Assembly: GCF_900111765.1 (NCBI RefSeq)
Contig: NZ_FOIB01000013.1
Location: forward strand, 62,001 to 126,000
Length of the DNA: 64,000 nucleotides
From: Myxococcus fulvus
GTDB lineage: Bacteria > Myxococcota > Myxococcia > Myxococcales > Myxococcaceae
Direction: 5' to 3'
Shown here: positions 43,479-61,351 of the stretch, in pieces
Numbering within the stretch: position 1 is the stretch's first letter
Layout of the letters: each line of letters starts with the position of its first letter
The notes under the pieces: generated by a model
Database searches by the model: none
What the model saw: only the letters and a program-made list of their open reading frames with translations
What the model was told of the DNA's origin: nothing
Position numbers and translations under genes: made by a program

Positions 43479-44562
43479 GTGACTCCTCGGCGAGAATCGG
43501 GGTCCACTCCTGGGCGGGCAGCTCCACGCGGACGCGCACCCAGCCCTCCTCCTCGGAGGTCTCCAGTCGCGCGCGCTCCGCGTAGAGCTGGGCCAGCCGC
43601 TCGCGCACGTTGCGAAGGCCGGTGCCCGTGCCCTCGGGGCCCATCTCCCGGGCGGGCGGCGCCCACACGCCGGTGTTCTCCACCAGGATGCGCAGCACGT
43701 CCTGCTCCCGCGTGACTCCCAGCCGCACCCGCACCGGCAGCTTCCCCGACGCCAGCCCGTGCTTCACCGCGTTGTCCACCAGCGGCTGGATGAGGAACGC
43801 CGGCACGGAGAGCCGCTCGGTGCCCGGCATCACCGACACGTGCACGTCCAGCTTCTCCTCGAAGCGCACCGACTCGATGCTCAGGTAGTTGCGCACCATG
43901 GCGAGCTCCTCCTCCAGGGGCACGTGCGGGCTGTCCCCCTTCTGGAGCGAGAAGCGCAGGAAGTCCGCCATCTCCGTGACCATGCGTTTGGCGCGCGCCG
44001 GGTCCTCGCCAATCAGCGCGCGGACCGACGTCAGCGCGTTGAACAGGAAGTGCGGACGCACCTGGTGCCGCAGCGACGCCAGCCGCGCCTCCTGCGCCAG
44101 GGTGTCCGCCTTCAGCGCTCGCTCGCGCTCGTCCTGCCACGCCCGGGCGTGCTTGATGCCGAAGTACAGCCCGCTCCAGCCCAGCAACGTCACCGCGTAG
44201 TCGAGCGCGGACCGGGCGAACATCATGCGGTTGGTGCGCCAGTTGTATGTGTCATACAGCCACGTGGCCCACACCTCGGCGAGGACCATCCACAGCACGC
44301 CGAACGTCGCGCTGGTGACCATGGCCCAGGCGGCCTGACGGGTGAAGCCGCCGGGGAACAGGCGCTGGTAGCCCAGCCGCATCAGCGAGGTGAGCAGCAG
44401 GCCGAACATCGCCCGGCTGCCCTTGGCGATGAGCAGGTGCGCCGCCCGCCCATCGGAGGCGGCCGCGGGCAGGAAGGTGACGATGAGCAGGAGCGCGTAG
44501 AGCCCCCAGCCACCGAACTGCATCGGCCAGAAGGAGGGCCTCGACGCCGCGCGGGAGTCCAT
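43444..44562 (-). CDS. LytS/YehU-type sensor histidine kinase
   Basis: 372 residues. Four or so membrane segments in the first 150 residues are followed by a His_kinase domain with RHQVRPHFLFNALTSVRALI (phospho-acceptor His in HFLFN) and an HATPase_c domain (IQPLVDNAVKHGLASG; GTGTGLRNVRERLAQLY). The ATG at 44562 (MDSRAAS) is preferred; an earlier in-frame Met 22 codons upstream lacks support. It overlaps the LytTR regulator gene, its cognate partner. The membrane part is not a classical 5TM-LYT domain, and the signal is unknown. Confidence 0.92.
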   Translation of the reverse strand: MDSRAASRPSFWPMQFGGWGLYALLLIVTFLPAAASDGRAAHLLIAKGSRAMFGLLLTSLMRLGYQRLFPGGFTRQAAWAMVTSATFGVLWMVLAEVWATWLYDTYNWRTNRMMFARSALDYAVTLLGWSGLYFGIKHARAWQDERERALKADTLAQEARLASLRHQVRPHFLFNALTSVRALIGEDPARAKRMVTEMADFLRFSLQKGDSPHVPLEEELAMVRNYLSIESVRFEEKLDVHVSVMPGTERLSVPAFLIQPLVDNAVKHGLASGKLPVRVRLGVTREQDVLRILVENTGVWAPPAREMGPEGTGTGLRNVRERLAQLYAERARLETSEEEGWVRVRVELPAQEWTPILAEESHDAPAARVAGG

Positions 44563-46886: not shown

Positions 46887-46889
46887 GAC

Positions 46890-47840
46890 TCAGGCGCGGG
46901 GCTGGGACTGCCGCAGCCACGCCACCGTGTCGCTCAGCGTCTGGCGGTGGGCGCGCGGCTGGTAGTCGAGCTCCTCGTGGCTCCACAGGGTCTTGAAGCC
47001 CCAGTGGCACGTGGACATCTCGAGCACGACGGGGTCCGGCAGCTTCTTGAGCGGCACCTTCGAGCCCAGCTTCGCCAGGCCCTGCACGACGAGCGTGGGC
47101 ACGTCGGGCTTGTCCACCTTGATGCCAGCGACCTCGCCCACGCGCTCGAAGAAGGTGCGCAGGGACAGGGACGTCCCGGGCAGGTGGTACGTGTCGCGCC
47201 AGGTGTCGCGCCTGGCCAGCCGCGCGAGCGCGTGCGCCACGTCGCGCACGTCGGTGAAGGCGATGCCGCCCGCGGGGATGAAGGGCAGCCGGCCGTTGAG
47301 CACGCGCGCGACGTTGGTCGTCGAGCGGCCCAGCGTGTCGCCCGGGCCGAGCAGCACCGGAGGCCGCACCACCGTCAGCTCCACGCCCAGCTGCTTCGCG
47401 AGCTTGCGCGACTGCTCCTCGGCGCGAATCTTCGACAGGTAGTAGGGCCAGCGGCCGACGACGCCCTCCGCGTAGAGCGAGTGTTCGTCCGCCTCGATGG
47501 TGGCGTGGGGGAAGCAGCCCACGGTGCCGGACGTCGACACCAGCACCATCCGGGCGTCGAGCGCCCTCGCCGCGCGCACCATCGCCAGCGAGCTCTCGAT
47601 GTTGAAGCGCACCATCTCCTCGGCGTGGTGCCGGCTGTGGTGCACCATGCCCGCCGCGTGAATCACCACGCGCGTGCCCTTCGCCTGGGACAGCCACGCG
47701 TCGGGCTCCATCGGCGTGCCCGATATCTGCTGGGCCGGGGTGTCGAGCGGCGAGCGCACCAGCGCCACCGCGTCGTCGCCCAGCACCTCCAGCAGGTTGC
47801 GTCCCAGAAAGCCGCTGGCACCCGTGACGAGCGTCTTCAC
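46890..47840 (-). CDS. NAD(P)-dependent SDR/epimerase, probable alkyl-DHAP reductase step
   Basis: 316 residues. Extended SDR with the nucleotide motif TLVTGASGFLGRNLLE and the catalytic YYLSKIRAEEQ (YxxxK). HAAGMVHHSRH, VRPPVLLGPGD and FTDVRDVAHAL are also family-typical. The start is a GTG at 47840 with GAGGTG upstream; it overlaps the stop of the acyl reductase/acyltransferase gene (GTGA), so it is coupled. Being the last gene of an AGPS operon, it may reduce the keto group of alkyl- or acyl-DHAP; this is inferred from context, since its family is broad. Confidence 0.85.
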   Translation of the reverse strand: MKTLVTGASGFLGRNLLEVLGDDAVALVRSPLDTPAQQISGTPMEPDAWLSQAKGTRVVIHAAGMVHHSRHHAEEMVRFNIESSLAMVRAARALDARMVLVSTSGTVGCFPHATIEADEHSLYAEGVVGRWPYYLSKIRAEEQSRKLAKQLGVELTVVRPPVLLGPGDTLGRSTTNVARVLNGRLPFIPAGGIAFTDVRDVAHALARLARRDTWRDTYHLPGTSLSLRTFFERVGEVAGIKVDKPDVPTLVVQGLAKLGSKVPLKKLPDPVVLEMSTCHWGFKTLWSHEELDYQPRAHRQTLSDTVAWLRQSQPRA

Positions 47841-50446
47841 GACTGCACCTCGCCCCGCCACGCGCAGGCCTGCTGGAACTGGGCGAGCTGCGCCGCGTTC
47901 GGACCCCACTCGAGGTCGTCACCCGAGGGCTTCACGATGTCGAGCGACAAGAGCGCCTGCACCACGCCGTCCAGGTGCGGACGGTGCGCCACCGGCACGG
48001 CCTTCAGCTCGCAGGGCGCGCTCACCTTCGTCGCCTCCAGGTAGTCGCGCACCACGGGCTCGAAGAGCGCCTTCACCACCGCGTCGACGCGCACATCGCC
48101 CATCTCCGCCAGCGGCGTGGCGCACCAGCGGTAGCGCGACAGGTGCGTCTCCAGCGCGGGGTTGCCCGGCTGGCGCGCCAGCACGTCGCCCGCGAACCAG
48201 TTCTGCCACTGGTTGCGCAGCGAGTGCGCCAGCGTCGGAGTCAGGGGCGAGGGCACCGGCAGCTCGCTGGCGATGACGCGCCCGCCCCGCCGCTCGATGG
48301 CGTCCTTCAGCCACGCCTCGTCGACGCCCGGAATCGGGTGCTCGGCGAGGAACGCGCGCAGGTGGAAGCTGCTCACCGCGGTGTGGCGCTGCAGCTCGGC
48401 CATCACCGTGTGGCTCAGCGCGCGCACGTCCGTGTCCGGGCCCATGGCCTGGGGCTGTCCGCACGCCACGTGCACGCGGCCCAGCTGGACCTGTCCACGC
48501 GCCAGCTTGCCCAGCCACGACATGACGCCCGTGAGCGTCATCTTCGGGCGCGGCTTGCCGGACAGCTCCTCGCACAGCGAAGCCTCCTCCGGGAGCCGGT
48601 CGTAGGAGATGGCCACGGGCAGGACGACGAACTGGCGCCCCGTGTTCTGCAGGGCACGCAGCAGGCCCCGCTTGGGCGGCAGCATCAGCCGCGCGCGGCT
48701 GCGCTGACCCTCGATGAAGAACATGAGCGAGGCGTTCTTCTCGGTGAGCCGGCGCAGCTCCTCGCCCAGCTCCGGCACCTCGCGGCCCACGCCGCGCTTG
48801 ATGAAGAAGGCCTGCGAGTCCTTGAGGATGGGCCCCACCACGGGGATTCGGCCGAACTCCTCCGCCGCGGCGATGTGCGGCATGGAGATGCCCAGCTCCG
48901 GGTGCTGGAAGCACAGGTAGCTGGTGAGCAGGAAGTCGAAGTAGCTGCGGTGCGTGGGCGCCAGCACCACCAGCGCGCCCGGGGGCACCTGCGCCATCGC
49001 GCGCTCGAACGAGGGCCGGTCGAACGTCACGTCGCTGGTGCAGTGGCGGAACGTCTTGCGCAGCGCATAGCCGAACACCTTGAGCGTGGTGTTGGCGGCC
49101 GGGCGCTCCTTGAGCCACGTGCTGTCCGCGCGCCCGTCATCGTGCTTGGGCCCGGCGAAGGACACCTGCGACTCGTCGCGCGACAGCAGGTGGCGGTACA
49201 TGCCCTCGTTCACCACGCGCACGTACTCGCGCGGCTCGAAGCCGGGGACCTCCAGCGCAGAGGCGCGCACGAAGTCGAAGGTGTGGTGCGTGAAGTACGA
49301 GAAGCCCTCGTTGAGGTACTGGACCTTCTGGTCCGCGCGCACGAGCTTGCGCAGGGCCTTGCTCTGCCCGAGCACCGTCAGGGCGGCCTTCTGCAGCTGC
49401 ACGGGCAGCTCGCGCCGCACCAGGTCGGCGGCGTCGAAGCCGTGGTCCTTGCGGCCGACGAACATGTCGGGCGCCTTCACCACGCCGGGGCGGTGCTTGA
49501 ACCACTCGATGGTGGCCGCGGCCGCCATGTCGATGCGCAGCGCCCGCTGCACGCCCATGGTGGCGTGGACGATGGGCACCGGCTGGCCTTCGGCCGGCAT
49601 GGGGCCGAACACCGCGCGCACCACCTCACTGGCCACCACGTCCACCGGCACCACGTCCAGGCGCACCGACGGGTCCGCGTTGAAGGCCCGCACCACGCCC
49701 AGGCCGCTGTACAAGAGGCACCCGGCGAGCGCGGCCGGGCTGTCGAGCCAGGCGGGGAAGGGCGTGCGGTGCGCGGCCGACACGATGCTGGGGCGCACGA
49801 TGACCACGGGCACGTGGCCGCGCCGCTGGCAGATGAGGTGCTCGGCGACGCTCTTGGTGAGCGTATAGGTGTTGGGGTGGCCGGTGAGCGTCAGCCACTC
49901 GCGGCCGTCGCCTTCCGCCACCTGGAACGCCTCGTAGAGCTCCGAGGCGGGCTTGGGCAGGTGCGCCAGCCGCTCCTCGATGGGGCCGGGGCGCCAGACG
50001 CTGACGTACGCGGTCGACACGTCGACCATGCCCACGACCTTGGGGCACTCGCGCGCCAGCTCCAGCACGGACAGCGCGCTGCGGATGTTGGCGGACGTCG
50101 CCTGCGCGAGCGGCAGGTCGAACTCCACGCTCGCCGCGCAGTGCACCACGTGCGTGACGCTGCCACGCACGGCGTCCCGGTCCGTGGCGGACAGGCCGCA
50201 GGCGGGCTGCTCCAAATCCCCGCTCACCACGTCGACCTGCTGGGTCCAGCCGGCCGGCAGGCGCGAGAAGCAGGCGGCCTGGGCCACCTTGGCGAAGCGC
50301 TCGGTGGCCGACTGCACGCGGCCCTGACGGTCCTTGGACTCGCGGACCAGCACGGTGACGCGCTCGACGCCCTGGTGCAGCAGCGCCTCCAGCACCACCT
50401 TGCCGACGAAGCCGGTGACGCCGGTGAGAAAGACATGGCGGGACAT
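47837..50446 (-). CDS. Fatty acyl-CoA reductase fused to a PlsB/GNPAT-like acyltransferase
   Basis: 869 residues. The N-terminal domain (1-about 260) is the male-sterility type NAD-binding reductase: FLTGVTGFVGKVVLEALL, HCAASVEFDLPL, YTLTKSVAEHLI (YxxxK) and VRPSIVSAAH. A FAR C-terminal segment follows. Residues about 480-720 are a glycerol-3-phosphate/DHAP acyltransferase with motif I APTHRSYFDF (HxxxxD), motif II SQAFFIKR, motif III FIEGQRSR and motif IV VVLPVAISYDR. The fusion can supply both the fatty alcohol and acyl-DHAP that AGPS needs, which in animals come from FAR1 and GNPAT. Start overlaps the AGPS stop (TGATG). Confidence 0.92.
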   Translation of the reverse strand: MSRHVFLTGVTGFVGKVVLEALLHQGVERVTVLVRESKDRQGRVQSATERFAKVAQAACFSRLPAGWTQQVDVVSGDLEQPACGLSATDRDAVRGSVTHVVHCAASVEFDLPLAQATSANIRSALSVLELARECPKVVGMVDVSTAYVSVWRPGPIEERLAHLPKPASELYEAFQVAEGDGREWLTLTGHPNTYTLTKSVAEHLICQRRGHVPVVIVRPSIVSAAHRTPFPAWLDSPAALAGCLLYSGLGVVRAFNADPSVRLDVVPVDVVASEVVRAVFGPMPAEGQPVPIVHATMGVQRALRIDMAAAATIEWFKHRPGVVKAPDMFVGRKDHGFDAADLVRRELPVQLQKAALTVLGQSKALRKLVRADQKVQYLNEGFSYFTHHTFDFVRASALEVPGFEPREYVRVVNEGMYRHLLSRDESQVSFAGPKHDDGRADSTWLKERPAANTTLKVFGYALRKTFRHCTSDVTFDRPSFERAMAQVPPGALVVLAPTHRSYFDFLLTSYLCFQHPELGISMPHIAAAEEFGRIPVVGPILKDSQAFFIKRGVGREVPELGEELRRLTEKNASLMFFIEGQRSRARLMLPPKRGLLRALQNTGRQFVVLPVAISYDRLPEEASLCEELSGKPRPKMTLTGVMSWLGKLARGQVQLGRVHVACGQPQAMGPDTDVRALSHTVMAELQRHTAVSSFHLRAFLAEHPIPGVDEAWLKDAIERRGGRVIASELPVPSPLTPTLAHSLRNQWQNWFAGDVLARQPGNPALETHLSRYRWCATPLAEMGDVRVDAVVKALFEPVVRDYLEATKVSAPCELKAVPVAHRPHLDGVVQALLSLDIVKPSGDDLEWGPNAAQLAQFQQACAWRGEVQS

Positions 50447-52341
50447 CAGTGAGGCTCCTCGTTCGGGGTGAGCGCCACCGGGCCGTTGATGCCGCTGTTC
50501 GACGCGCCGAAGACGTTCTCCGGGTCGATGGCCGCCTTCACCTTGCGGTTCAGCGCCAGCGCGCCCTCGGAGTAGACCTCCGGCAGGAAGTCGCGGCGGA
50601 TCTTGCCGACGCCGTGGTGGTGCGACAGCGAGCCGCCCGCGGCGAGGATCTCCTCGCGCGCCGCGTGCTCCAGCGCCGCGTAGGCGCCGACCGGGTCCTC
50701 CACGCCCTTCGCGTAGAAGCCCAGGTAGAAGTAGATGACCACACCCGTCTGGTAGACCTGGGTGAGGCGGCCGGTGAAGAACACCTTGCCGGGCAGCTTC
50801 AGCGCGGCGTGCTCCTTCTCCACCCGGCGCTGCACGCGCTCGTAGAGCTCCAGCGCGCGGCTCCACGGCACGCTCGTCTCGAAGCTCTCCGCGATGGCCC
50901 AGTGCTCGAAGGTGAGGTCGCGGATGTAGGCGATGCCGAAGGTGAGCTGGTAGCCGCGCTCGCCGTTGGCGCCGCCGCCCTTCATGCCGCCGTGCGCGGC
51001 GGCGATGCGGTAGAGCGTCTTCTCCTGGAAGTCGACCTCCTCGCGCGAGCCCTCGAACACGATGGTCGCCACCGCGAGCTTGTACGGGTCGAAGCCCTTG
51101 AGCTTCGTGACGACGACCTTCTCCAGCTCGCTCTTGAGCTTCGCCGCCAGCCCGTGCTTGGCGGGCTTGAGCGCCTGGCCGAAGTGGAACTGGGTGTTGT
51201 CCATCACGCGCACGCTGGCGGGCACCGCGCCGGACTGCTGCAGCTCGTAGAGGAACGCCAGGCCCTCGGCCAGGTCCGGGAAGATGACCGAGCCGTAGCG
51301 CTGGACCTCGGGCAGCGGGAAGAGCTTCACCACCGCCGTGGTGATGATGCCGAAGTTGCCCTCGCTGCCGAACATGTACTGGCGCGGGTTGACGCCCACG
51401 CTCTCACGCGGCGCCTGGCGCGGGCGCTCCACGATTCCCTGGGCGGTGACGACCCGCATGTCCAGCACCAGGTCCTCGATGTTGCCGTAGCGGTTCTTCT
51501 TCATGCCGCTGGCGTTGGTCGCAATCCAGCCGCCCAGCGTGGAGAACTCCAGGCTGTCGGGCTCGTGGCCCATGGTGAAGCCGAACTTCGCCAGCTCGCT
51601 CATCAGGTGGCGGCCGGTGGCCCCCGCCTCGATGCAGGCCATGCGGTTGACGGTGTCGATCCACAGGACGCGGTTCATCTGCCGCATGTCCACGGCGATG
51701 ACCAGGCGCGCTTCCGACAGGGGGATGCGCAGGGCCTCGGTGACGTTGGTGCCGCCGCCGAAGGGGATGACACACGCGCCGTGCTTCGTGGCGGTCTCCA
51801 CCAGCTTCACGACCTCGTCGTGGCCGCGCGGGAAGACCACCAGGTCCGGGACGCGGTCCAGCTTCGTGTAGCGGATGGCCCAGATCTCCCCGCCCGTGTG
51901 CCCGTGGCCCCGGCGCAGCCGCTGCTTGGGGTCGTCGGTGAGCTGGTCCTCCTTCAAGAACCCGCGCAGCGCGGTGAGCAGCGCCGGGTCCTTCTTCGCC
52001 TCGGGAATCTGGGGCGGGTAGTGGGGCTCGTTGCGGTTGTCGTAGCCCAGCGGCGAGGCCAGCTTGGCGGCGAACCACGGCATCAGCTCCGGCAGCGCCA
52101 CGTTGCTGATGTTGTAGCGGGTGCCCGTCAGCAGCGTGCTGCCATCGGGTTGCACCACGAAGCGGGTGTCCTCGAAGCCCCAGCCCTCGAGGGATTCGAC
52201 GTCCTGGGACGCGGGGGAGACGGGGGGCGTGAAGCGCGTGTCTCCAGACGACACAGTGGACGACTTGCCGTCGAGGCGCTCGCCGGTTCCGCTCTGCACC
52301 GCATTACCCAGACGGTGCAGCAATCCTGATTTGTCAGCCAT
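50446..52341 (-). CDS. agps: Alkyldihydroxyacetone-phosphate synthase (AGPS), ether-lipid enzyme
   Basis: 631 residues, close to eukaryotic AGPS. A type-4 FAD-binding (PCMH) domain is visible (VPDLVVFPRGHDEVVKLVETATKHGACVIPFGGGTNVTEAL; LGGWIATNASGMKKNRYGNIEDLV). The hallmark active-site histidines appear in GGSLSHHHGVGKIRRDFL. AGPS replaces the acyl chain of acyl-DHAP with a fatty alcohol, forming the ether bond. In Myxococcus such ether lipids mark development. It heads a coupled operon with the FAR-acyltransferase and the SDR, and diverges from a TetR gene. The ATG at 52341 is the family start. Confidence 0.93.
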   Translation of the reverse strand: MADKSGLLHRLGNAVQSGTGERLDGKSSTVSSGDTRFTPPVSPASQDVESLEGWGFEDTRFVVQPDGSTLLTGTRYNISNVALPELMPWFAAKLASPLGYDNRNEPHYPPQIPEAKKDPALLTALRGFLKEDQLTDDPKQRLRRGHGHTGGEIWAIRYTKLDRVPDLVVFPRGHDEVVKLVETATKHGACVIPFGGGTNVTEALRIPLSEARLVIAVDMRQMNRVLWIDTVNRMACIEAGATGRHLMSELAKFGFTMGHEPDSLEFSTLGGWIATNASGMKKNRYGNIEDLVLDMRVVTAQGIVERPRQAPRESVGVNPRQYMFGSEGNFGIITTAVVKLFPLPEVQRYGSVIFPDLAEGLAFLYELQQSGAVPASVRVMDNTQFHFGQALKPAKHGLAAKLKSELEKVVVTKLKGFDPYKLAVATIVFEGSREEVDFQEKTLYRIAAAHGGMKGGGANGERGYQLTFGIAYIRDLTFEHWAIAESFETSVPWSRALELYERVQRRVEKEHAALKLPGKVFFTGRLTQVYQTGVVIYFYLGFYAKGVEDPVGAYAALEHAAREEILAAGGSLSHHHGVGKIRRDFLPEVYSEGALALNRKVKAAIDPENVFGASNSGINGPVALTPNEEPH

Positions 52342-52432
52342 GGTCGCGCGCAGTGGTACATAGGGTTGCTCGGTGCGTCAACGCGCGTGCGTTTCGCAGG
52401 TGCGCACCGCGTTACGCACTTTCGGAACGCGC

Positions 52433-52503
52433 GGTCTCGTAAGTGGCCTAACGAGACCCGCGGTCTCGTAATCCGGCTTCTTCCGAGACAGGAAGTCTCG
52501 TAA
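52433..52503. promoter_or_regulatory. TetR-type operator array between tetR and the ether-lipid operon
   Basis: GTCTCGTAA occurs three times (52434, 52463 and 52495; spacings 29 and 32). The first copy pairs with ACGAGACC at 52451-52458 to give a perfect 8-bp inverted repeat with a 10-nt spacer (52433-52458). CGAGAC at 52484-52489 gives a second, looser dyad with the middle copy. The array sits just upstream of the TetR start and fits autoregulation plus control of the divergent AGPS operon. Confidence 0.7.
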
Positions 52504-52512
52504 AGGGAGGTC

Positions 52513-53040
52513 ATGCGAGCGGGCCGACCGAGGGACGAGGGCGTGCGCCGGGCCATCCTGGTGGCGGCGCAGGAGCTGGTGCTGGAGCGGGGCTATGCGG
52601 CCGTCACCATGGGGGACGTGGCGAAGCGGGCCGGTGCGGGGAAGCAGACCCTCTACCGCTGGTGGCCCGGCAAGGGGGCGCTGGTGCTGGACGCGTTCTC
52701 GGAGTGGGTGAGCCAGGCGCCCAGGCTGCGCGGCCCTCGCAGGCCCTCCCTGTCCTCCACGCTGGTGGAGCTGTGCCGGGGCGCCTCGGAGGCGGCGCCG
52801 GTGCTGCGCGCGCTGATGGCGGAGGCGCAGTTCGACGAGGACCTCCACCGGCGGCTCCTCGCCCAGCTCGTGCGGCCGCGCGGCGACGAGCTCCGGGCCT
52901 GCCTCGTCGACCGGCGGCCAGCGGACCGGGAGCTGGTGGTCAACGTGCTCTCCGGGCTGGTGTGGCAGCGGCTGATGCTCAACGAGCCGCTCGACGCGCG
53001 CTTCGTGCGCTTCGCCCTGCGGGTGGTGGAGCGCATCTGA
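52513..53040 (+). CDS. TetR-family repressor
   Basis: 175 residues. The N-terminal helix-turn-helix is typical (GRPRDEGVRRAILVAAQELVLERGYAAVTMGDVAKRAGAGKQTLYRWWPGKGAL). The C-terminal half is helical and variable, the ligand-binding part. It diverges from the ether-lipid operon with the GTCTCGTAA array between, and is its probable regulator. The purine-rich AAGGGAGG ends only two bases before the ATG, an unusually short spacing, but no alternative start fits the domain. Confidence 0.92.
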   Translation: MRAGRPRDEGVRRAILVAAQELVLERGYAAVTMGDVAKRAGAGKQTLYRWWPGKGALVLDAFSEWVSQAPRLRGPRRPSLSSTLVELCRGASEAAPVLRALMAEAQFDEDLHRRLLAQLVRPRGDELRACLVDRRPADRELVVNVLSGLVWQRLMLNEPLDARFVRFALRVVERI

Positions 53041-53245
53041 AGGGGGGCCGGCGGCCAGGCGGGCCCCCGCCCAAGGGTGGGCGGAACGGAGTTGGCCGGC
53101 CCGTTCCCGCTGTGCTAGCTAGCGCCCAGCCACTCGACGCTCCGATGGCGGCGCGGCATCTCGTCGCGACCGTAGGGTGTCCTCGGGTGGCATTTCTTCG
53201 GCTGGCGCCTCCCGAGCATCGACCCCGTTGTTGCTGGAGGCCTAC

Positions 53246-54268
53246 ATGTCGACGTCCGAACTGCCCGTCCTCGAGTTCATCCTCGCGAACTACAAGAACT
53301 TCAACGCGCGGGCGACGCGCGACTCGCTCTTGTCCTACTGGGACCACGTCTCCACGGGTGGCCGGATGTTCTGGAGCGTCGCGGGCGCGATGTCGTCGGC
53401 GCAGCTGGGCATCACCCTGGCGCCCGCCATCCGCTCGGGCCTGATTCACGGCCTGTCCGTCACGGGCGCGAACCTGGAGGAGTCGCTCTTCCGGCTCGTC
53501 GCGCACGCCGCGTACAAGGACTTCCCGGAGTACCGCTACTTCACCAAGCAGGACGACACCAAGATCCTCGAGCAGCGGATGCGCCGGGTGACGGACACGA
53601 GCATCCCGGAGGACGAGGCGTTCCGCGCGGTGGAGAAGTTCATCGTCCCGATGTGGAAGACGGCGACGGAGAAGGGCCAGCGCCGCTTCTGGCACGAGTA
53701 CTTCTACGAGGTCATCCAGATGCTGGACCCCTCGGCGTACGAGGGTGACCCGGAGGCCTGCTGGCTGCTCGAGGCGGCGCGGCGCAAGCTGCCCATCGTG
53801 GTCCCCGGCTACGAGGACTCGACGTTCGGCAACATCTTCGCGTCCTACGTGAAGTCGGGCGAGTGCAGCGCGAGCATCGTCAAGTCCGGCATCGAGTACA
53901 TGGCGGACTTCTATGACCGCTACGAGGAGCTGTCCGCGGGCCAGGGCGTGGGCTTCTTCCAGATTGGCGGCGGCATCGCCGGTGACTTCCCCATCTGCGT
54001 CGTCCCGTCCATCAAGTACGACCTGCAGAAGCCCGTGAAGCCGTGGGCGTACTTCTGCCAGATCAGCGACTCGACGACGTCCTACGGCTCGTACTCGGGC
54101 GCGACGCCCAACGAGAAGATCACCTGGGACAAGCTGACGGAGACGACGCCGATGTTCGTCATCGAGTCGGACGCCACCATCGTCGTCCCGCTGATGCTGC
54201 GCGCGCTGCTGGAGTGCCAGGGCAACCCGAAGGCGGCGGGCGCCCTCATCGCGAAGCACCGCGGCTGA
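53246..54268 (+). CDS. Deoxyhypusine-synthase-like protein
   Basis: 340 residues. The fold of deoxyhypusine synthase (NAD-dependent aminobutyl transfer from spermidine) is recognisable: LSVTGANLEESLFRLVAHAAYKDFPEYRYF, PIVVPGYEDSTFGN, FFQIGGGIAGDFPICVVPSI, and SYSGATPNEKITWDKL with a lysine at the position of the catalytic Lys of the eukaryotic enzyme. Bacteria lack eIF5A, so the bacterial homologues must use another acceptor, for example to make homospermidine, or have other roles. GGAGG five bases upstream supports the ATG at 53246. Two hairpins follow the gene. Confidence 0.88.
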   Translation: MSTSELPVLEFILANYKNFNARATRDSLLSYWDHVSTGGRMFWSVAGAMSSAQLGITLAPAIRSGLIHGLSVTGANLEESLFRLVAHAAYKDFPEYRYFTKQDDTKILEQRMRRVTDTSIPEDEAFRAVEKFIVPMWKTATEKGQRRFWHEYFYEVIQMLDPSAYEGDPEACWLLEAARRKLPIVVPGYEDSTFGNIFASYVKSGECSASIVKSGIEYMADFYDRYEELSAGQGVGFFQIGGGIAGDFPICVVPSIKYDLQKPVKPWAYFCQISDSTTSYGSYSGATPNEKITWDKLTETTPMFVIESDATIVVPLMLRALLECQGNPKAAGALIAKHRG

Positions 54269-54295
54269 GATGTTCGTGGGGATGTGACGGCATGC

Positions 54296-54371
54296 CGGGG
54301 CGGGAGGACTCCCTGCCGCCCCGCGCCGGATGCGTCGTGACGTGGCCGCCTCGTGGAATGCCCCCACGAGG
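54296..54371 (+). terminator. Two consecutive hairpins after the DHS-like gene
   Basis: Hairpin 1 has perfect 8-bp arms 54296-54303 and 54316-54323. Hairpin 2 has perfect 8-bp arms 54349-54356 and 54364-54371 with a 7-nt loop. The second arms extend with weaker complementarity (GGCC..GGCC). They end the DHS-like transcript and isolate it from the hotdog cluster. They occupy part of the 511-bp gap at 54269-54779; the rest holds the repeat block described next. Confidence 0.65.
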
Positions 54372-54554
54372 CCTGGCCGCTCCGGCGCGGATGTGACGCT
54401 CCTCGATGTCCGTCGTGATGCCCGCGCATTCCCATGCGCCGTGGTGGCGCGCCTGGAGATTCGTGGGGGCCCGGTGTCGGCTGTCGGGCACTTGCCGGCG
54501 GGCGAGCCCCGGGCCCGGTGCGGGCACGCGTGAAACACGGACGAGGCGCGTGAT

Positions 54555-54660
54555 GCGGGGTGAGCCGGCGCCCGCATTGTCTGTGATTGTCGCCCTGGAG
54601 GGTGTCTGTGTTTCGAGTTGACGCCAGGGACGGGCGTGGTGATGTATGAGCCGTCCGGTC
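54555..54660 (+). repeat. Duplicated upstream region, copy A
   Basis: The stretch containing TTGACG (54618-54623), a 17-nt spacer and GATGTATGAGCCGTC is repeated with few changes at 55641-55746 before the paralogous gene. The conserved TTGACG and GATGTA spacing suggests a shared promoter; the exact -10 is uncertain. Confidence 0.65.
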
Positions 54661-54779
54661 GCGAATCATTTCGTGCTCATCCAGGGAGACCTCGGGTTTT
54701 CGGCCGGGCGTGATTCATGACCTGCCCCAGTGGCTCGCTCCGCGCTGTCGTCAGGCGTGCACAGGAAGGGACAAGTGCA

Positions 54780-55616
54780 ATGAAGCCTCTGCTTGAACTC
54801 ATTGGAGAGACGGCGCCGTACGTCAGGGCCTTCGACGTGACGGTCAAGGAGGATGGTGCGGTGCTCGGCTGGTTCAAGCCCGAGCAGCAGCGTTACGCCG
54901 AGACGACCTTGCTGAGCGTCTCCGAGGCGCTGCGCTCCATGGCCCTCCACGGTGCCCTGATTGCCGCCGAGGCGAACCCGGTGAAGGCCCGTCACTACTA
55001 CCTGGGCAGCCGCGCCGAGCTCCAGGTGTTCCCGGTCGAGGCCACCGGACTGGAGGCCTTCCAGTGCGAGGGACGCCTGGTGGGAATCGACCACTCGGAC
55101 CTGGGCCCCATCTACCGGGTGAAGGGGAGCTGCCGCACGGACAAGGGCGAGCTTTACGCGGAGCTGGACGGCGCCCTGCTGGTGCTGACGGAGGAGGAGT
55201 TCGTGGGGCTCAAGGGCGCGGATGTGTCGCCACGCCCCAGGTGGACCCCGGGCCAGCCGAGCCCCTATGCGGACCCCTTGCGCCCCATGACGCTGGAGTG
55301 GACGGAGCCTGGGAAGATGCTCCGGGCGTCACTCCCGGGTTTGCCTCGCGAGGACTTCGCCGGTCACTTCGACATCCGTCCGCTCTGTCCCATGTCACTG
55401 ATCGTGGCGAACGCCGCCTCGCTGCTGGGGCGCTTCCCCGGATACGAGCGGTTCTGGATCCGCCACTGCTCCTTCTCCTGCAGGGACGTGGTGGACCCTG
55501 GCCAGGCGCAGCGGCTCATCTGTGTCTCCGACAAGCCTGGACGGTTCGTGGTCACCGTGGAGAGCGACGAGGGCCAGCGGCTGGGCCGTTTCAAGTTCGA
55601 GGCCGTGCCTGCCTGA
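54780..55616 (+). CDS. Double-hotdog-fold protein, copy A
   Basis: 278 residues. Each half resembles a hotdog domain. The N-terminal half (LLELIGETAPYVRAFDVTVKEDGAVLGWFKPEQQR; YYLGSRAELQVFPVEATGLEAFQCEGRL) looks like the acyl-thioester hotdogs. The C-terminal half has LPREDFAGHFDIRPLCPMSLIVANAASLL, which parallels the FFxGHFPGxPxxPGVLxxEA signature of FabA/FabZ dehydratases, keeping the GHF catalytic histidine. A dehydratase or thioesterase role on an acyl substrate is likely. AGGAAGGG precedes the ATG. It is the upstream member of a tandem duplicate. Confidence 0.7.
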   Translation: MKPLLELIGETAPYVRAFDVTVKEDGAVLGWFKPEQQRYAETTLLSVSEALRSMALHGALIAAEANPVKARHYYLGSRAELQVFPVEATGLEAFQCEGRLVGIDHSDLGPIYRVKGSCRTDKGELYAELDGALLVLTEEEFVGLKGADVSPRPRWTPGQPSPYADPLRPMTLEWTEPGKMLRASLPGLPREDFAGHFDIRPLCPMSLIVANAASLLGRFPGYERFWIRHCSFSCRDVVDPGQAQRLICVSDKPGRFVVTVESDEGQRLGRFKFEAVPA

Positions 55617-55640
55617 GCCTGCGTGACGGAGCTGTCGGGT

Positions 55641-55746
55641 GCGGGGTGTGTTCATGCCCGCAGTGCCTGTGATTGCTGCCCTGGAGGGTGTCTCCGTTCG
55701 GGTTGACGCGAGGATCGTGCGTGGTGATGTATGAGCCGTCTCATTC
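55641..55746 (+). repeat. Duplicated upstream region, copy B
   Basis: Counterpart of 54555-54660, with TTGACG at 55703-55708 and the same 17-nt spacing to GATGTATGAGCCGTC. The duplication unit therefore includes promoter and gene. Confidence 0.65.
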
Positions 55747-55770
55747 GTGAAACATGAAAGGACGCGTGCA

Positions 55771-56607
55771 ATGGAAGACCTGCTCGACCTCATCGGAGAG
55801 ACGGCGCCCTATGCAAGGCTCTTCGGTGTGACGTCCAAGGACGACGTGGTGCTCTGTTGGTTCAAGCCCGAGCAGCAGCGCCATGCCGAGACGACCTTGA
55901 TGAGCTGCTCCGAGGGAATGCGCGCCATGGGCGTCATGGGCGCCCTGGTCGGCGCCTCGGCGAATCCGTCGAAGGCGTGTCGTCATTACTACCTGGGGCT
56001 GCAGGCCGACTTCCGGGCGTTCCCGGTCGAGGCCACCGATTCAGAGGTGTTCCAGTGCGTGGGGCGCCTGGAGAAGGTCCGTCGCTCGAAGCTGGGCCCC
56101 ATCTATCAGGTGAGCGGGGCGTGTCTCACGGACCGGGGTGAGCGCTATGCGGAGATGGAGGGGGCCCTGCTGGGGCTGACGGAGGAGGAGTTCGTGAACT
56201 TCAAGGGGCGCGACGCGGCCGCGCCGGCTCCCTGGACTCCGGACATGCCGAGCCCCTATGTCGACCCTGTACGGACCCTGGACGTACAGTGGCTGGAGCC
56301 TGGAAGGAAGCTCCGGACGACGCTGCCTGGCTTTCCTCGCGAGGACTTCGCCGGACATTTCGGCATCCGTCCCTTGTGTCCGGTGTCCATGCTCTCGGCG
56401 AACGCGTGTTCGCTCGTGAGTCACTTCTCCGGATACGAGAAGCATTGGATCAGCCGCTGCACCCTCGTCTGTGAGGACGTGGTGGCGGCCGAGCAGGAGC
56501 AGCGGCTCACCTGTGTCCAGGAGGACGGCGGCAGGTTCTCGGTCCACGTGGAGAGCGGCGAGGGCCGGAGTCTGGCTCAGTTCAAGATCGACGCGATGCG
56601 CGTCTGA
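55771..56607 (+). CDS. Double-hotdog-fold protein, copy B
   Basis: 278 residues, exactly the length of copy A, and clearly homologous over the whole length (DLIGETAPYARLFGV, FKPEQQRHAETTL, YYLGLQADFRAFPVEATDSEVFQC, EDFAGHFGIRPLCPVSML). The GHF histidine is kept. The second Met (55771) is chosen over the first (55747) because it aligns with copy A and AAAGGA precedes it. It ends 15 bp before the lipocalin-like gene, so they are probably one operon. Confidence 0.72.
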   Translation: MEDLLDLIGETAPYARLFGVTSKDDVVLCWFKPEQQRHAETTLMSCSEGMRAMGVMGALVGASANPSKACRHYYLGLQADFRAFPVEATDSEVFQCVGRLEKVRRSKLGPIYQVSGACLTDRGERYAEMEGALLGLTEEEFVNFKGRDAAAPAPWTPDMPSPYVDPVRTLDVQWLEPGRKLRTTLPGFPREDFAGHFGIRPLCPVSMLSANACSLVSHFSGYEKHWISRCTLVCEDVVAAEQEQRLTCVQEDGGRFSVHVESGEGRSLAQFKIDAMRV

Positions 56608-56622
56608 CGCGGAGGTGATGTG

Positions 56623-57081
56623 ATGCTCAAGGATGAACTGGTGGGGACGTGGAAGCTCTTGTCCATGGAGTACGTGCAGCCAGATGGCCGGCGCAATCAC
56701 CCCTTCGGAATCCACCTGCTGGGCTGCTTGATGTACGACGCGCACGGGAACATGTCGGTCCAGCTCATGCGCAAGGACAGGGCCTCCTTCGAGTCCCCGG
56801 ACCCGCTGGCCAGCCAGCCCCAGGAGACGAAGGCGGCGATGGACGGGGCCACCTTCTACTTCGGCACCTACTCCGTCGACGAGGAGACGCGCGTCGTGTC
56901 CCACGCCATCGAGGGGAGCCTCTTCCCGAACTGGCAGGGCGTGGTGCAGCGGCGGCATGCCGTCGTGGAGGCGGAGAAGCTCTCCCTTCGGACCGAGCCC
57001 ATGCCTTTCAAGGGGAGCCACGGGGTGATGGTGCTGACCTGGCGCAGGCTGACCGGCCGGGCGGGCACGCCGGGCCACTGA
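56623..57081 (+). CDS. Lipocalin-like domain protein
   Basis: 152 residues. The lipocalin-like (Lipocalin_5 type) signature is visible: LKDELVGTWKLLSMEYVQPDGRRNHPFGIHLLGCLMYDAHGNMSVQLM, then FYFGTYSVDEETRVVSHAIEGS. These small barrels bind or modify small molecules in biosynthetic clusters. The ATG at 56623 follows GGAGG by seven bases; a GTG one codon upstream is possible. It sits between the hotdog pair and the B12-radical-SAM gene. Confidence 0.82.
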   Translation: MLKDELVGTWKLLSMEYVQPDGRRNHPFGIHLLGCLMYDAHGNMSVQLMRKDRASFESPDPLASQPQETKAAMDGATFYFGTYSVDEETRVVSHAIEGSLFPNWQGVVQRRHAVVEAEKLSLRTEPMPFKGSHGVMVLTWRRLTGRAGTPGH

Positions 57082-57174
57082 GGGCTCGCTCCGACGCTCG
57101 AACCTGAAGCACGTCCACCGCCCCGGGATGGACTACGCTCCGTGGTCTTCGTCGGAAAGGTCGGTGCGTGTCCC

Positions 57175-58893
57175 ATGGGTGGTGGTCGTGTGCTCTCGCC
57201 AGTGCTCCTCGTCGGTGCCGGATTGGGGGAGGCCACGTGCGGCATCCTCTACCTGGCCAGCTACCTGCGACGCGGCGGCATCGAGGCCTTCGTGCGGCTG
57301 TACGACGGCGACGAGACCCAGGCCGAGGTCATCCGCTCGTTCGAGGCCCTGGTGCGTCGCGTGCGCCCCAAGCTGGTGGGCATCAGCCTCAAGTGGTTCC
57401 ACCACGTCGACCGCGCGCTGCTCATCGCCCGGACGCTGCGGAAGATCGACCCGTCCATCCGCGTCGTCGTGGGCGGCAACTCCGCCTCCTACTGGTGGCG
57501 GGAGCTGCACGCGTTCGACTGCATCGACCACGTGGTGCTGGGGGACGGTGAGCGGCCGCTCCTGGCCCTGTGCCAGGGGGAGGACGCTCCGCCCAACTGC
57601 GTGAGGAGGGACCCGGATGGCCGTGCGCGCCGGTTGCCGCTCGAGTACGTGCAGGGCGCCACCAACACCGAGGACGTCTTCTACTCGCACTTCGACGAGA
57701 TGTTCCTGAGCCAGCTCGACCTGAACTCCTTCTCCGGCTGGGTGGCGCCGGGCAAGGGGTGCGGCGAGAACTGCCTGTACTGCGGCGGCGCGCGTGGGAA
57801 CCAGAAGGCCGCCTTCGGTCGGGCGAAGCCCTTCCTTCGCTCCGAGGAGAGCGTCCGGAGGGACCACCAGGAGATCGCCGGCAAGACGTGGCAGATGCGC
57901 TACGACTTCGCGGGGAGCTCGGCGGAGTTCCTGGGCAGCACCTGGGCGGGCGTGGACCTGTCCGGCCACTGCTGCACGTACTTCCTGTGGGGCGTGCCGC
58001 GCCTGGAGCTGGTCGAGGCGCTGTCGAACACCTTCGAGCGCGTCTACATGGTGGTGGACATCGGCTGCTTCTCCGAGAAGCAGCGCCTGGAGCAGATGGG
58101 CCGCGGGCTGCTCAAGCCCTGCGCGAAGGACCGGGAGCTGCTCGAGCTCATCGAGGGCTGCCGCCGCTACAAGAACCTGGGCGTCGAAATCTCCGGCATC
58201 GGCGGGCTGCCGTTCGCCAGCGAGGCCACGCTCGTCGAGGAGCTCGCGCTGGTCAAACGCATCATCGACCAGGACTGCGTGGTGGGCTACCAGCGGCTGG
58301 AGTCGCAGCCCGGAGCGCTCGTCACCGAGCACCCCGCGAGGTTCGACATGGTGAGCGAGGCGCGCACGTTCAACGAGTTCCTCGACTTCTTCGAGCGCCG
58401 TGAGCCGGGCGACGTGTCCGTCCCGATGATTCGCTTCCGCGACGCGAAGCTGGAGGCGGCGGTGCAGCGCACCTCCGAGCAGGTGGATGCGCTGGCGTGG
58501 AAGCACCGGGACGCGCGACGCAACCTGGACGTCAACGGGCGCACGCGGCTGGTCAACACCGCGTCCTCGCCCCGGCGCTTCTCGCTGGGGGACTGGCTGG
58601 GCAGCCACCGGGCTCCGGTGAAGGTCGCGGGTGAGCAGGTGACCGTCCTTCGCTCCGTCGACGGCATCACCTTGAGCTGCGCGCCCACCGTCAGCCCGCG
58701 CAGGTTCTCCGACCCCACGCTGGTCCAGGGCGACGACGGGGCCATCCTGCTGGCGGCCCTCGCCGCGTTCGAGCGCCCCACCACGGTGTCCAGCGCGGTG
58801 TCGCACCTGGGCAGCAAGGCCCGGCTGGACCCACACTCCGCCCGGGAGGTCATCGACCACCTGGTGGAGGGGCGCTTCCTCCAGCCGGGCTGA
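57175..58893 (+). CDS. B12-binding-domain radical SAM enzyme
   Basis: About 572 residues. The N-terminal part (LLVGAGLGEATCGILYLASYLRRGGIEAFV; VGISLKWFHHVDRALLIARTLRKIDPSIRVVVGGNSAS; VVLGDGERPL) has the Rossmann pattern of cobalamin-binding radical SAM proteins, although the His of DxHxxG is not obvious. The radical SAM motif is CGENCLYC (Cys196, Cys200, Cys203), and the C-terminal 80 residues look like a winged helix (AAFERPTTVSSAVSHL). Family members catalyse methylations or C-C bond formation on small molecules. The start is ATG 57175 or an upstream GTG at 57142. It converges with nhaA with 3 bp between. Confidence 0.85.
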   Translation: MGGGRVLSPVLLVGAGLGEATCGILYLASYLRRGGIEAFVRLYDGDETQAEVIRSFEALVRRVRPKLVGISLKWFHHVDRALLIARTLRKIDPSIRVVVGGNSASYWWRELHAFDCIDHVVLGDGERPLLALCQGEDAPPNCVRRDPDGRARRLPLEYVQGATNTEDVFYSHFDEMFLSQLDLNSFSGWVAPGKGCGENCLYCGGARGNQKAAFGRAKPFLRSEESVRRDHQEIAGKTWQMRYDFAGSSAEFLGSTWAGVDLSGHCCTYFLWGVPRLELVEALSNTFERVYMVVDIGCFSEKQRLEQMGRGLLKPCAKDRELLELIEGCRRYKNLGVEISGIGGLPFASEATLVEELALVKRIIDQDCVVGYQRLESQPGALVTEHPARFDMVSEARTFNEFLDFFERREPGDVSVPMIRFRDAKLEAAVQRTSEQVDALAWKHRDARRNLDVNGRTRLVNTASSPRRFSLGDWLGSHRAPVKVAGEQVTVLRSVDGITLSCAPTVSPRRFSDPTLVQGDDGAILLAALAAFERPTTVSSAVSHLGSKARLDPHSAREVIDHLVEGRFLQPG

Positions 58894-58896
58894 GCC

Positions 58897-60306
58897 TCAC
58901 AGCTCGGTGGAGCTCTCCGCCTCGTCCGCGCTCCTCGCCGCGTTGCCCACGGTGACGGGCGGGAGCAGGAGCCGGCCGAGCACCAGCGTGAGAATCGCGG
59001 CGCAGGCGCTCGCGGCGAGGACGCCCAGCTTCGCGCCCGCGAGCAGGCTCGCGTCGGTGAAGGCGAGCTGCGCGATGAACAGCGCCATGGTGAAGCCCAC
59101 GCCCGCGACCAGGCCGAGCACCACGAGGTGGCGCGCGGTGAGGCCCGCGGGCAGCGTGCCGATGCGCAGCCGGAGCGTCGCGCCGATGGCGAGCAGCACG
59201 CCCACGGGCTTGCCGACGACGAGGCCCACGGCGACGGCCGTCGCCACGCTCCAGGCGGAGGCGCCGAGCGTCCCGCCCGACAGCTGGACGCCCGCGTTGG
59301 CGAGCGCGAACACCGGCATGATGCCGAAGGCCACCCAGGGGTGGAGCGACTCGATGAGGCTCTCCGCGGGGGACAGGGCCTCGCGCCGCGCGAGGTCCAC
59401 GTGCCGGAGCACCCGCGAGAGGTCCTCGTGCGAGTGCGCGCCCGTGGACTGTTGCCCGAGCGTCTCCAGCTCCTGGCGCACGTCGACGAGCAGCCCCTGG
59501 GGGCCGAGCCACGCGCGCACGGGCGTCATGAGGCCCACGATGACCCCGGCGATGGTCGGGTGGATGCCCGCGGCGTAGATGCCCGCCCACGCGACGAGCG
59601 CGGGCGCGACGTAGGCCCACTTCGAGCGCACGCCCAGCCGCTGCATCGCGAGCACGCCGACGAAGCCGAGCGCGGCCGTCAGCAGCCCGGCGAGCGAGAC
59701 ACCCGAGGAGTAGAAGAGCGCGATGACGACGATGGCGCCCAGGTCGTCGATGACGGCCAGGGCCAGGAGCAGCACGCGCAGGGCGGGCGGAACGCGCTGG
59801 CCGAGCAGCGTCAGGATGCCGAGCGCGAAGGCGATGTCGGTCGCCATCGGGACGCCCCAGCCGCTCCTCGTCTCGGGGGCGCCCGCGAAGGCGAGGTAGA
59901 GCAGGGCCGGCGCGAGCATCCCACCGAGCGCCGCCGCGACGGGGAGCGCGGCCCGACGCCACTCGGACAGCTCGCCGTGGTGGACCTCGCGGCGGATCTC
60001 CATGCCGACGACGAAGAAGAAGATGACCATCAACCCGTCGTTGACGACCCACTCCAGCGAGCGCTCGAAGCTGAACGCGCCGAGCCGGAAGCCGACGGGC
60101 GTGTGCCAGAGGCGGGTGTAGCTCTCCGCCCACGGGGAGTTGGCCCAGGCGAGCGCGACGGCGGCCGCGACCAGCAGGAGGATTCCGCTCGCGGCCTGGA
60201 TGCGCAGGAAGCGCTCCAGGGGGCGGCTCGCCAGACGCACGAGGCGGAGCAGGGGCTCCCAGGCCTCCGGCGGAGACGTGGGAGGAGGAGGGACAGGGGT
60301 CGACAT
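58897..60306 (-). CDS. nhaA: NhaA Na+/H+ antiporter
   Basis: 469 residues with about twelve membrane segments. Signature elements are present: GMEIRREVHHGELSEWRRAALPVAAALGG, VPMATDIAFALGIL and ALAVIDDLGAIVVIALFYS with the essential Asp pair of the transport site. It exchanges Na+ (and Li+) for protons and helps sodium and pH homeostasis. The N-terminal Pro-rich 20 residues are an extension. The ATG at 60306 directly follows the putative riboswitch leader. Confidence 0.95.
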   Translation of the reverse strand: MSTPVPPPPTSPPEAWEPLLRLVRLASRPLERFLRIQAASGILLLVAAAVALAWANSPWAESYTRLWHTPVGFRLGAFSFERSLEWVVNDGLMVIFFFVVGMEIRREVHHGELSEWRRAALPVAAALGGMLAPALLYLAFAGAPETRSGWGVPMATDIAFALGILTLLGQRVPPALRVLLLALAVIDDLGAIVVIALFYSSGVSLAGLLTAALGFVGVLAMQRLGVRSKWAYVAPALVAWAGIYAAGIHPTIAGVIVGLMTPVRAWLGPQGLLVDVRQELETLGQQSTGAHSHEDLSRVLRHVDLARREALSPAESLIESLHPWVAFGIMPVFALANAGVQLSGGTLGASAWSVATAVAVGLVVGKPVGVLLAIGATLRLRIGTLPAGLTARHLVVLGLVAGVGFTMALFIAQLAFTDASLLAGAKLGVLAASACAAILTLVLGRLLLPPVTVGNAARSADEAESSTEL

Positions 60307-60386
60307 GGCGCATCCTCGCCGGCGGTTCAACCGGCTCGGATGGCGGCCCGACCATCCACTGTCCTGCAGCGGTGTGCTGCACCCTT
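60307..60386 (-). promoter_or_regulatory. Structured nhaA leader, candidate nhaA-I-type (lithium) riboswitch
   Basis: In the minus-strand leader an outer stem GGTGC/GCGCC encloses three hairpins: TGCAGC/GCTGCA, GGATGG/CCATCC and GCCGG/CCGGC around TTGAACC. The 3' strand of the outer stem abuts the ATG, and the Shine-Dalgarno GAGGA lies within the last loop, so folding could control translation. Position and gene match the nhaA-I motif, known as class I Li+ riboswitches. The match to the Rfam consensus was judged from memory and not scored. Confidence 0.6.
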
Positions 60387-60457
60387 GGGTTGTGTGAGGC
60401 CCGGGCACCTTCTCACAGGCGGCATCGAGGGTCGACGAATACCGGCGCGTGGGGGGC

Positions 60458-61186
60458 TCACGCGTTGTCCCGGAAGGGGATGCCCGAGGCGCGGAAGAAG
60501 ACGGCCGTCAGGGCCGCTGGGAGCGCGGCGAGCACGGGGGAAAGCAGGCCATTGGGCCCTCCCTCCATCCTGGCGGGTATCTCCAGGGTGACGAGGAGCA
60601 CGCCCGCGGCGGCGAGCAGCAGCAGCGCCCGGAGGTCCGCGGGGCGCGCTTCCGGGGCGATGACCAGCTTGAGGGCTCGCCAGGCTGTCAGGCCCCCGAC
60701 GAGTGCTGCCATGAACTGGGAAAAGGGGGGGATGAGGGGGCCGTGGAAGGCGAGGCTCATCAGGGTGTGGCCGACCAGGCTCACCACCACGGTGCCCAGG
60801 CTCCCCAGCGTGGTGAGCGCGGCCGAGACGACGAGGACCCATCGCGGCGGTGCCAGGGCGGGAGTGCGCCCGAAGGTGAGGTCCGCGGGTGTCAGGCGTC
60901 GTGCCTCGGGGCCATCGAGCTTGAGCAGCGCCTTCACCGCGAGCGTCCGGCAGGAGCGTCCCTTCCGGTCCCGCACGGTCGTCAGGGTGCCGGAGTGCAG
61001 GAGTTCCCACAGGACAGCGCCCAGCTCGGGGGGGCCGCCTCGGTGGGCCACGTCGCGCAGGCGGGCGCTCAAGGTCTCCACGTCGAGCGTGGTCTCTCCC
61101 TGATGGGCGAGCACGGCCTGCTCGGCGAGGCCTCGCAGCGTCGCCACTTCCATCGCGGTGAGGTCGGACTGCGAGGGTTCGAGCAC
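60458..61186 (-). CDS. Hypothetical membrane protein
   Basis: 242 residues. The first about 110 residues are soluble and helical (AEQAVLAHQGETTLDVETLSARLRDVA). The rest has four hydrophobic segments (VLVVSAALTTLGSLGTVVVSLVG, FMAALVGGLTAWRALKLVI, ALLLLAAAGVLLVTLEI, VLAALPAALTAVFF). No family is recognised. The start is a GTG at 61186; a downstream ATG 11 codons in is possible. Confidence 0.7.
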   Translation of the reverse strand: MLEPSQSDLTAMEVATLRGLAEQAVLAHQGETTLDVETLSARLRDVAHRGGPPELGAVLWELLHSGTLTTVRDRKGRSCRTLAVKALLKLDGPEARRLTPADLTFGRTPALAPPRWVLVVSAALTTLGSLGTVVVSLVGHTLMSLAFHGPLIPPFSQFMAALVGGLTAWRALKLVIAPEARPADLRALLLLAAAGVLLVTLEIPARMEGGPNGLLSPVLAALPAALTAVFFRASGIPFRDNA

Positions 61187-61351
61187 GGCGCGCAGTCTAT
61201 GCCAGACGTGTGTGTTTGAGGTACGGGCCCGCGTGTGAGTCTTCAGGGAGAGGCCCCGCGAGGCCCCGAGGACCGCGGAGTGGGCGCGAGGAGCCGGGCC
61301 GCATGTGCGACCCTGGCGTGCGCGGCTTCAACGGACCTCCATCGCGGCATG

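Follow-up and report, generated by a model that had tools for sequence, protein, structure and literature searches.

A patchily distributed double-hotdog and lipocalin gene pair in Myxococcus fulvus with a candidate split dehydratase dyad

What do two adjacent genes of equal length, both encoding hotdog-like proteins, do beside a lipocalin gene and a gene for a cobalamin-type radical SAM (S-adenosylmethionine) enzyme? This question is raised by positions 54554-58893 of a 64,000-nucleotide (nt) stretch of Myxococcus fulvus DNA, hereafter the window, which comes from contig 13 of a 10.8-Mb genome (G000). A sequence-only reading had taken the four genes, which lie on the same strand with small gaps, for the parts of one small biosynthetic pathway. 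Comparison with other genomes leads us to a different arrangement: 54780-57081 is best read as an accessory cassette of two genes, a double-hotdog gene and a lipocalin gene, of which the first occurs here as a tandem duplicate, and the radical SAM gene looks like a core-gene neighbour that is not part of this unit.

The pairing of the two genes is the feature that recurs. A sequence search found full hotdog genes in 3 of 100 genomes, and a profile search found intact ones in 4 of 195 genomes of the phylum, namely the window genome with its two copies and G025, G053 and G154 with one each; in most genomes scoring was limited to 12 candidates, so that weak relatives may have escaped notice. In all four intact loci the lipocalin gene follows directly after the hotdog gene (both G053 genes and the G025 lipocalin start were taken from frame reading and tblastn), and this much of the supposed common pathway stands. 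Both genes are broken in two further genomes: in G151 the N-terminal part of the hotdog match is missing and what remains runs over two frames, while the lipocalin match stops after 32 residues, and in G129 remnants of the two are fused in one frame. A scan of genome contigs with two narrow peptide patterns found 2 loci. A viral or plasmid origin was also considered; searches of plasmids, and of viral contigs with narrow peptide patterns, turned up no relative of the hotdog protein. The literature searched contained no description of a hotdog-lipocalin pair and no paper on a double hotdog in Myxococcus.

The lipocalin tells a similar story. Its protein (P0003) matches Lipocalin_5 (PF13924) over its full length (E 7e-37, 126.9 bits against a gathering score of 25), a match shared with other members of that family, and it belongs to a tight group. 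In 145 genomes of the order this group has five intact members, broken copies left aside, that score at least 279 bits compared with at most 127 bits for the rest. Four of these five stand beside a hotdog gene. A search of the PDB with the lipocalin gave one chance-level match only, there was no match in PHROGs, and nothing on function was found among the titles of papers on PF13924. The fifth member of the group, in G150 (L101:8659-9102), is 88% identical to that of G053 and lies directly after a 747-residue frame that we named UvrA-like by eye.

The duplication had been noticed from the window alone and is borne out. Proteins A (P0001) and B (P0002) are identical at 166 of 277 positions (60%, BLASTP E 6e-123), and the DNA upstream of each gene is 80% identical over 116 nt. 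No third copy of the upstream repeat occurs in the whole window genome at E≤0.001, and stretches surrounding the pair from three further genomes (L033, L034 and L098) contain no match to it, which points to a duplication of the hotdog gene together with its upstream region within this lineage. Because a tree of the five hotdog proteins leaves its forks open and does not settle A and B as sisters, that relation rests on their identity and common upstream DNA. The FabZ-like glycine-histidine-phenylalanine (GHF) motif reported for both C-terminal halves is there as FAGHF[DG]IRPLCP. In third-position G+C the two hotdog genes rank lowest and fourth-lowest of the 50 genes called in the window. A sigma-70 promoter scan found none, and a terminator scan found one terminator-like site, within the 1.2 expected.

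A sibling genome, G004, suggests what has become of the block elsewhere. It aligns with the window at 95.8% identity over 46889-54617 and at 95.2% over 57030-61249 (the likeness is broken beyond 61249, and the fetched stretch ends close to 46889), and between these segments it has 19 nt in place of 2412. At the junction G004 carries 23 nt identical to 56908-56930 and the alignment restarts at 57030, both inside the lipocalin gene; these scraps of 23 nt and 19 nt are exact, whereas shuffling the junction 500 times gave longest exact matches of 8.4 nt on average and 15 nt at most. Since scraps of the lipocalin gene remain, this gene was already there in the common ancestor, and the block has been lost from G004, probably in two steps. 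The same scraps led us to reject a recent insertion into the window genome. The flanking genes are kept in G004, the radical SAM gene at 97% and a deoxyhypusine-synthase-like gene at 99% identity. The junction lies at a short common TCGAG (54613-54617 and 56909-56913), as if by microhomology.

Neither A nor B, the main proteins of the cassette, fits any Pfam, NCBIfam or PHROGs family, with chance-level matches only (0.13 for B, 0.072 for P0007). Relatives and models support the hotdog assignment of the earlier reading, firmly for the C-terminal half and less so for the N-terminal half. Protein A matches a set of paralogues that are core in the genus at E 6e-11 to 4e-8, with 27-30% identity within residues 12-221, and two of these paralogues match FabZ models at E 6e-7 and 9e-5, with 20-29 bits against cut-offs of 155 and 113 (TIGR01750 and NF000582). 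Five family members and three paralogues, combined in one profile, retrieved four PDB chains up to E 10, all of them FabZ (E 0.027-0.64). Two AlphaFold models, built from three-sequence alignments, both show the order beta-beta-alpha-beta4 twice, which would be the elements of two hotdogs in 278 residues. Foldseek gave 234 and 273 PDB matches for the two models at E≤0.001, and nearly all of the best 50 for each are titled acyl-thioester hydratases, dehydratases, thioesterases or fatty acid synthases; VIA-align gave Z up to 12.6 over about 100 residues, mainly of the C-terminal half. The N-terminal hotdog is predicted from the order of these elements and from the Foldseek alignments.

Residues 60-181 of protein A also match a 552-560-residue protein that lies, as judged by eye, in a phage-tail-like gene set in G002 and G026 (L037:9475-9831 and L038:9709-10065), with 30-32% identity over about 125 residues and E 1e-8 and 5e-7 against 20-kb stretches or 2.8e-7 and 1.7e-5 genome-wide. 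That protein is matched by neither protein B nor P0006, lacks the GHF region and has no Pfam family, and the match is probably due to chance.

The core double-hotdog paralogue (L035:9344-10366 and L036:8729-9760) and its orthologues share 23-25% identity with the family over the whole length and the same invariant residues; unlike the patchy hotdog gene of the cassette the paralogue was matched in all 27 genomes of the genus that were searched, and no lipocalin relative was found in three 20-kb stretches around it (L035, L036 and L039). We assembled 37 distinct sequences, 5 from the family and 32 from paralogues (42 frames reduced to 31 distinct sequences, plus P0010), and ten residues are the same in every one: E41, E49, R52, G58, H72, Y74, G195, H196, F197 and P204. 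FabZ has its catalytic Glu six positions downstream of the conserved Pro in the GHF motif, and by alignment this register falls on Ala210 of protein A, six residues after Pro204. The column is non-acidic in 36 of the 37 sequences, with Ala or Gly in all five family members and Ser in 30, Gly in 1 and Glu in 1 of the 32 paralogues. The histidine of the textbook dyad is thus invariant in the C-terminal half and its usual acid, one paralogue excepted, is gone from there. Both models place Glu49 early in the N-terminal central helix, and from this predicted position we infer that Glu49 rather than Glu41 would be the acid.

These observations suggest, tentatively and with somewhat less than an even balance of confidence, that the hotdog proteins are one-chain pseudo-dimers of FabZ-like descent, acting like acyl-thioester dehydratases or hydratases through a dyad split between His196 and Glu49, with the lipocalin as partner. 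This explanation takes up genes, a duplication, a pairing, a loss in relatives and a conservation of residues that were observed directly, together with a fold from modest models, and supplies the dyad geometry, the chemistry, the co-transcription and the part of the lipocalin by inference. If it holds, doubling of a FabZ-like hotdog within one chain would have given a built-in pseudo-dimer in which the C-terminal hotdog provides a FabZ-type His196 and the N-terminal helix provides the acid Glu49, leaving one working site per chain and the second, mirror site dead. An acyl thioester (acyl-coenzyme A or acyl carrier protein) would bind in the tunnel between the two hotdogs, where His would take the alpha proton and Glu would help the hydroxyl to leave, or the reverse for hydration; related proton-shuttle chemistry such as isomerisation or cyclisation would be an alternative. 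The barrel of the lipocalin, whose gene is probably co-transcribed with hotdog B, would then receive a small hydrophobic product, either freed or still bound to its carrier, and would bind it, hand it over or convert it further. Fungal lipocalin-like Diels-Alderases, as reported, indicate that a lipocalin fold can act as a catalyst in settings of this kind, with no kinship to the window lipocalin implied. A bolder version, which we regard as speculative and rather unlikely, would have the proteins form a new stand-alone double-hotdog family that arose independently in myxobacteria with its dyad split the opposite way to polyketide synthase (PKS) dehydratases, the accessory branch and its lipocalin making up a two-protein dehydrating or cyclising unit that acts on a carrier-bound acyl or polyketide chain.

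Several results pull away from this split-dyad reading. Searched alone, protein A found three weak PDB matches (E 0.3-0.61), none of them FabZ: two hypothetical proteins and a carboxymuconolactone decarboxylase family protein. Confidence in the two models is low (mean predicted local distance difference test, pLDDT, 63.8 and 61.8), residues 37-48 and 190-202 of the protein A model, Glu41 and the GHF motif included, fall under pLDDT 50, and VIA-align covered mainly residues 66-278. Full-length comparison with known double hotdogs gave template modelling (TM) scores of about 0.3 and root-mean-square deviations of about 16-22 Å, the domain packing not being reproduced; because of this and the low confidence, the nearness of Glu49 to His196 is a conjecture. 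A profile comparison of the N-terminal with the C-terminal half found no similarity (probability under 4%), Glu41 is as invariant as Glu49, and one of the 32 distinct paralogues (L093, in G054) retains Glu in the FabZ acid column and may therefore show the ancestral state. The lipocalin of G150 stands without a hotdog gene, and dN/dS between A and B is 0.55 (NG86), which is compatible with relaxed constraint. A rival reading makes the proteins thioesterases, or catalytically silent acyl-thioester binders like the hotdog domain of FapR, for which the lipocalin would serve as carrier. The leading VIA-align rows are thioesterases and FapR, from Z 12.6 downwards, and the FabZ entries (12.2 and 11.6) are level with them to about one Z unit. 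Foldseek has TesB and FatA near the head of its list, and the FabZ acid is missing from the domain to which it belongs. Against this stand the GHF histidine, a dehydratase signature kept in 37 of 37 sequences, and the profile matches, which are to FabZ save for one weak match of a paralogue to the FlK thioesterase (E 0.028). On balance we consider such a binder or thioesterase unlikely, though it deserves to be taken seriously.

Two other explanations concern the locus as a whole. The block could be the decaying remnant of a larger, lost pathway and have no present function, as the dN/dS of 0.55 between A and B, the patchy presence (4 of 195 genomes intact), the broken copies in G129 and G151, the scraps in G004 and the lone lipocalin of G150 might suggest; five intact reading frames that retain every invariant residue, and dN/dS of 0.13-0.21 (YN00) or 0.25-0.36 (NG86) among the hotdog genes of G025, G053 and G154, make this improbable. 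(YN00 values were obtained for 3 of 10 hotdog pairs, none with A or B, and for 2 of 6 lipocalin pairs.) The opposite proposal, that the hotdog pair, lipocalin and radical SAM enzyme act as a joint four-gene pathway, draws on their common strand and small gaps in this one genome. The sequence-only reading had rightly seen a lipocalin and a cobalamin-type radical SAM gene following the hotdog genes: the product of the latter (P0004) has a B12-binding domain (Pfam, E 3e-13) and a CX3CX2C motif that can be read directly as CGENCLYC, with 13.8 bits against the 29.5-bit cut-off of Radical_SAM (PF04055) and 77 bits against the cut-off of 500 for TIGR04190, a B12-binding radical SAM equivalog. It had also called for a genome-context survey, and in this the radical SAM gene proved present in all 8 genomes picked because they carry the hotdog-lipocalin locus whole, in part or broken. 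This co-occurrence, a result not far from the outcome that the sequence-only reading had named as counting against itself, arises only because the gene is present nearly everywhere: it occurs in 34 of 61 genomes, among them all 27 of the genus, and 25 of these 27 are without a full hotdog gene. It lies on a different contig from the pair in G025, G053 and G154, and in G004 it is still 97% identical after loss of the block. We fetched 12 further radical SAM loci from the 33 other genomes with the gene (three stretches shortened by contig ends) and compared their neighbours with window genes after 42000; at 11 of the 12 the neighbours differ, only those of G004 being the same, and one locus (L072) matches regulator-like window genes at 42735-44562 twice, with 39-50%. 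The four-gene cluster was rejected on these grounds and a joint pathway, largely refuted by the genomics, is very improbable. The radical SAM protein, which stands alone and has a relative of 60% identity in G060, from another family of the order, is far under the listed NCBIfam cut-offs and is an uncharacterised core enzyme worth a study of its own.

Features of the locus, in window coordinates.
Feature	Position	Strand	Remarks
Upstream non-coding DNA of hotdog gene A	54554-54669	+	Local alignment; second copy is 55640-55755
Double-hotdog protein A (P0001, 278 residues)	54780-55616	+	Glu49 codon 54924-54926; GHF His196 codon 55365-55367
Second copy of the upstream repeat	55640-55755	+	Local alignment and whole-genome comparison
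Double-hotdog protein B (P0002, 278 residues), tandem duplicate of A	55771-56607	+	Glu codon 55912-55914; GHF His codon 56356-56358
Lipocalin_5 protein (P0003, 152 residues)	56623-57081	+	PF13924; starts 15 nt after hotdog gene B
B12-binding/radical-SAM protein (P0004)	57142-58893, start possibly 57202	+	Looks like a neighbour, outside the hotdog-lipocalin unit
Stretch absent from sibling G004	54618-57029		Except 23 nt identical to 56908-56930

Adjoining the block, 53177-54268 encodes the deoxyhypusine-synthase-like protein (PF01916, E 3e-35), which falls under every listed NCBIfam equivalog cut-off and has relatives in 42 of 61 genomes, in identity groups of about 73-99%, about 50% and 26-28%. 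Further out, 46890-52299 on the minus strand holds what by eye is an ether-lipid-like set, consisting of a reductase, an 869-residue fusion of reductase and acyltransferase, and an oxidase that Pfam confirms as FAD-linked; these genes may resemble alkyl-dihydroxyacetone phosphate (DHAP) synthase/Elb genes.

With the radical SAM enzyme, its most exotic member, out of the picture, the finding is more ordinary than had been held, and a search for a pathway that is probably absent is spared. What is left is a two-gene accessory cassette, present in some myxobacteria and missing from others, with a main protein that neither Pfam nor NCBIfam models cover, and at its core a putative new double-hotdog family with an unusual and testable split of a textbook dyad. 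The nearest known molecule is FabZ, the (3R)-hydroxyacyl-ACP dehydratase, which is the only one that the family-plus-paralogue profile retrieved from the PDB and which shares the GHF histidine motif with Pro at +8 and, as predicted, the hotdog fold. FabZ is a single hotdog that assembles as a trimer of dimers, whereas the window proteins would have two hotdogs per chain, lack the acid in the GHF domain and do not reach the cut-offs of the FabZ models. In FabA each site draws its two residues from different subunits, according to PMC2698920, which also names the Glu-His dyad.

The dehydratase (DH) and product template (PT) domains of PKS offer a closer parallel in architecture, since they too are one-chain double hotdogs with His and acid on different hotdogs, as we propose here. 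In the PT domain of AviM, arranged like PKS DH domains, His belongs to the N-terminal hotdog and Asp to the C-terminal one (PMC9135731). The order would be reversed in the window proteins, with His C-terminal and the candidate acid N-terminal, and these proteins stand alone; in our models, with the low TM scores mentioned above, the packing of the two hotdogs is unreliable. If the proposed dyad is real, these proteins would represent an independent case of a homodimeric dehydratase becoming a one-chain, one-site enzyme with its catalytic residues placed opposite to those of PKS dehydratases, and would offer a naturally occurring test of the way in which double hotdogs give up one of their two sites. 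The mycobacterial dehydratase HadAB likewise has an asymmetric hotdog pair with a single active site, but it consists of two proteins and carries both residues of the dyad on HadB (PMC4491049).

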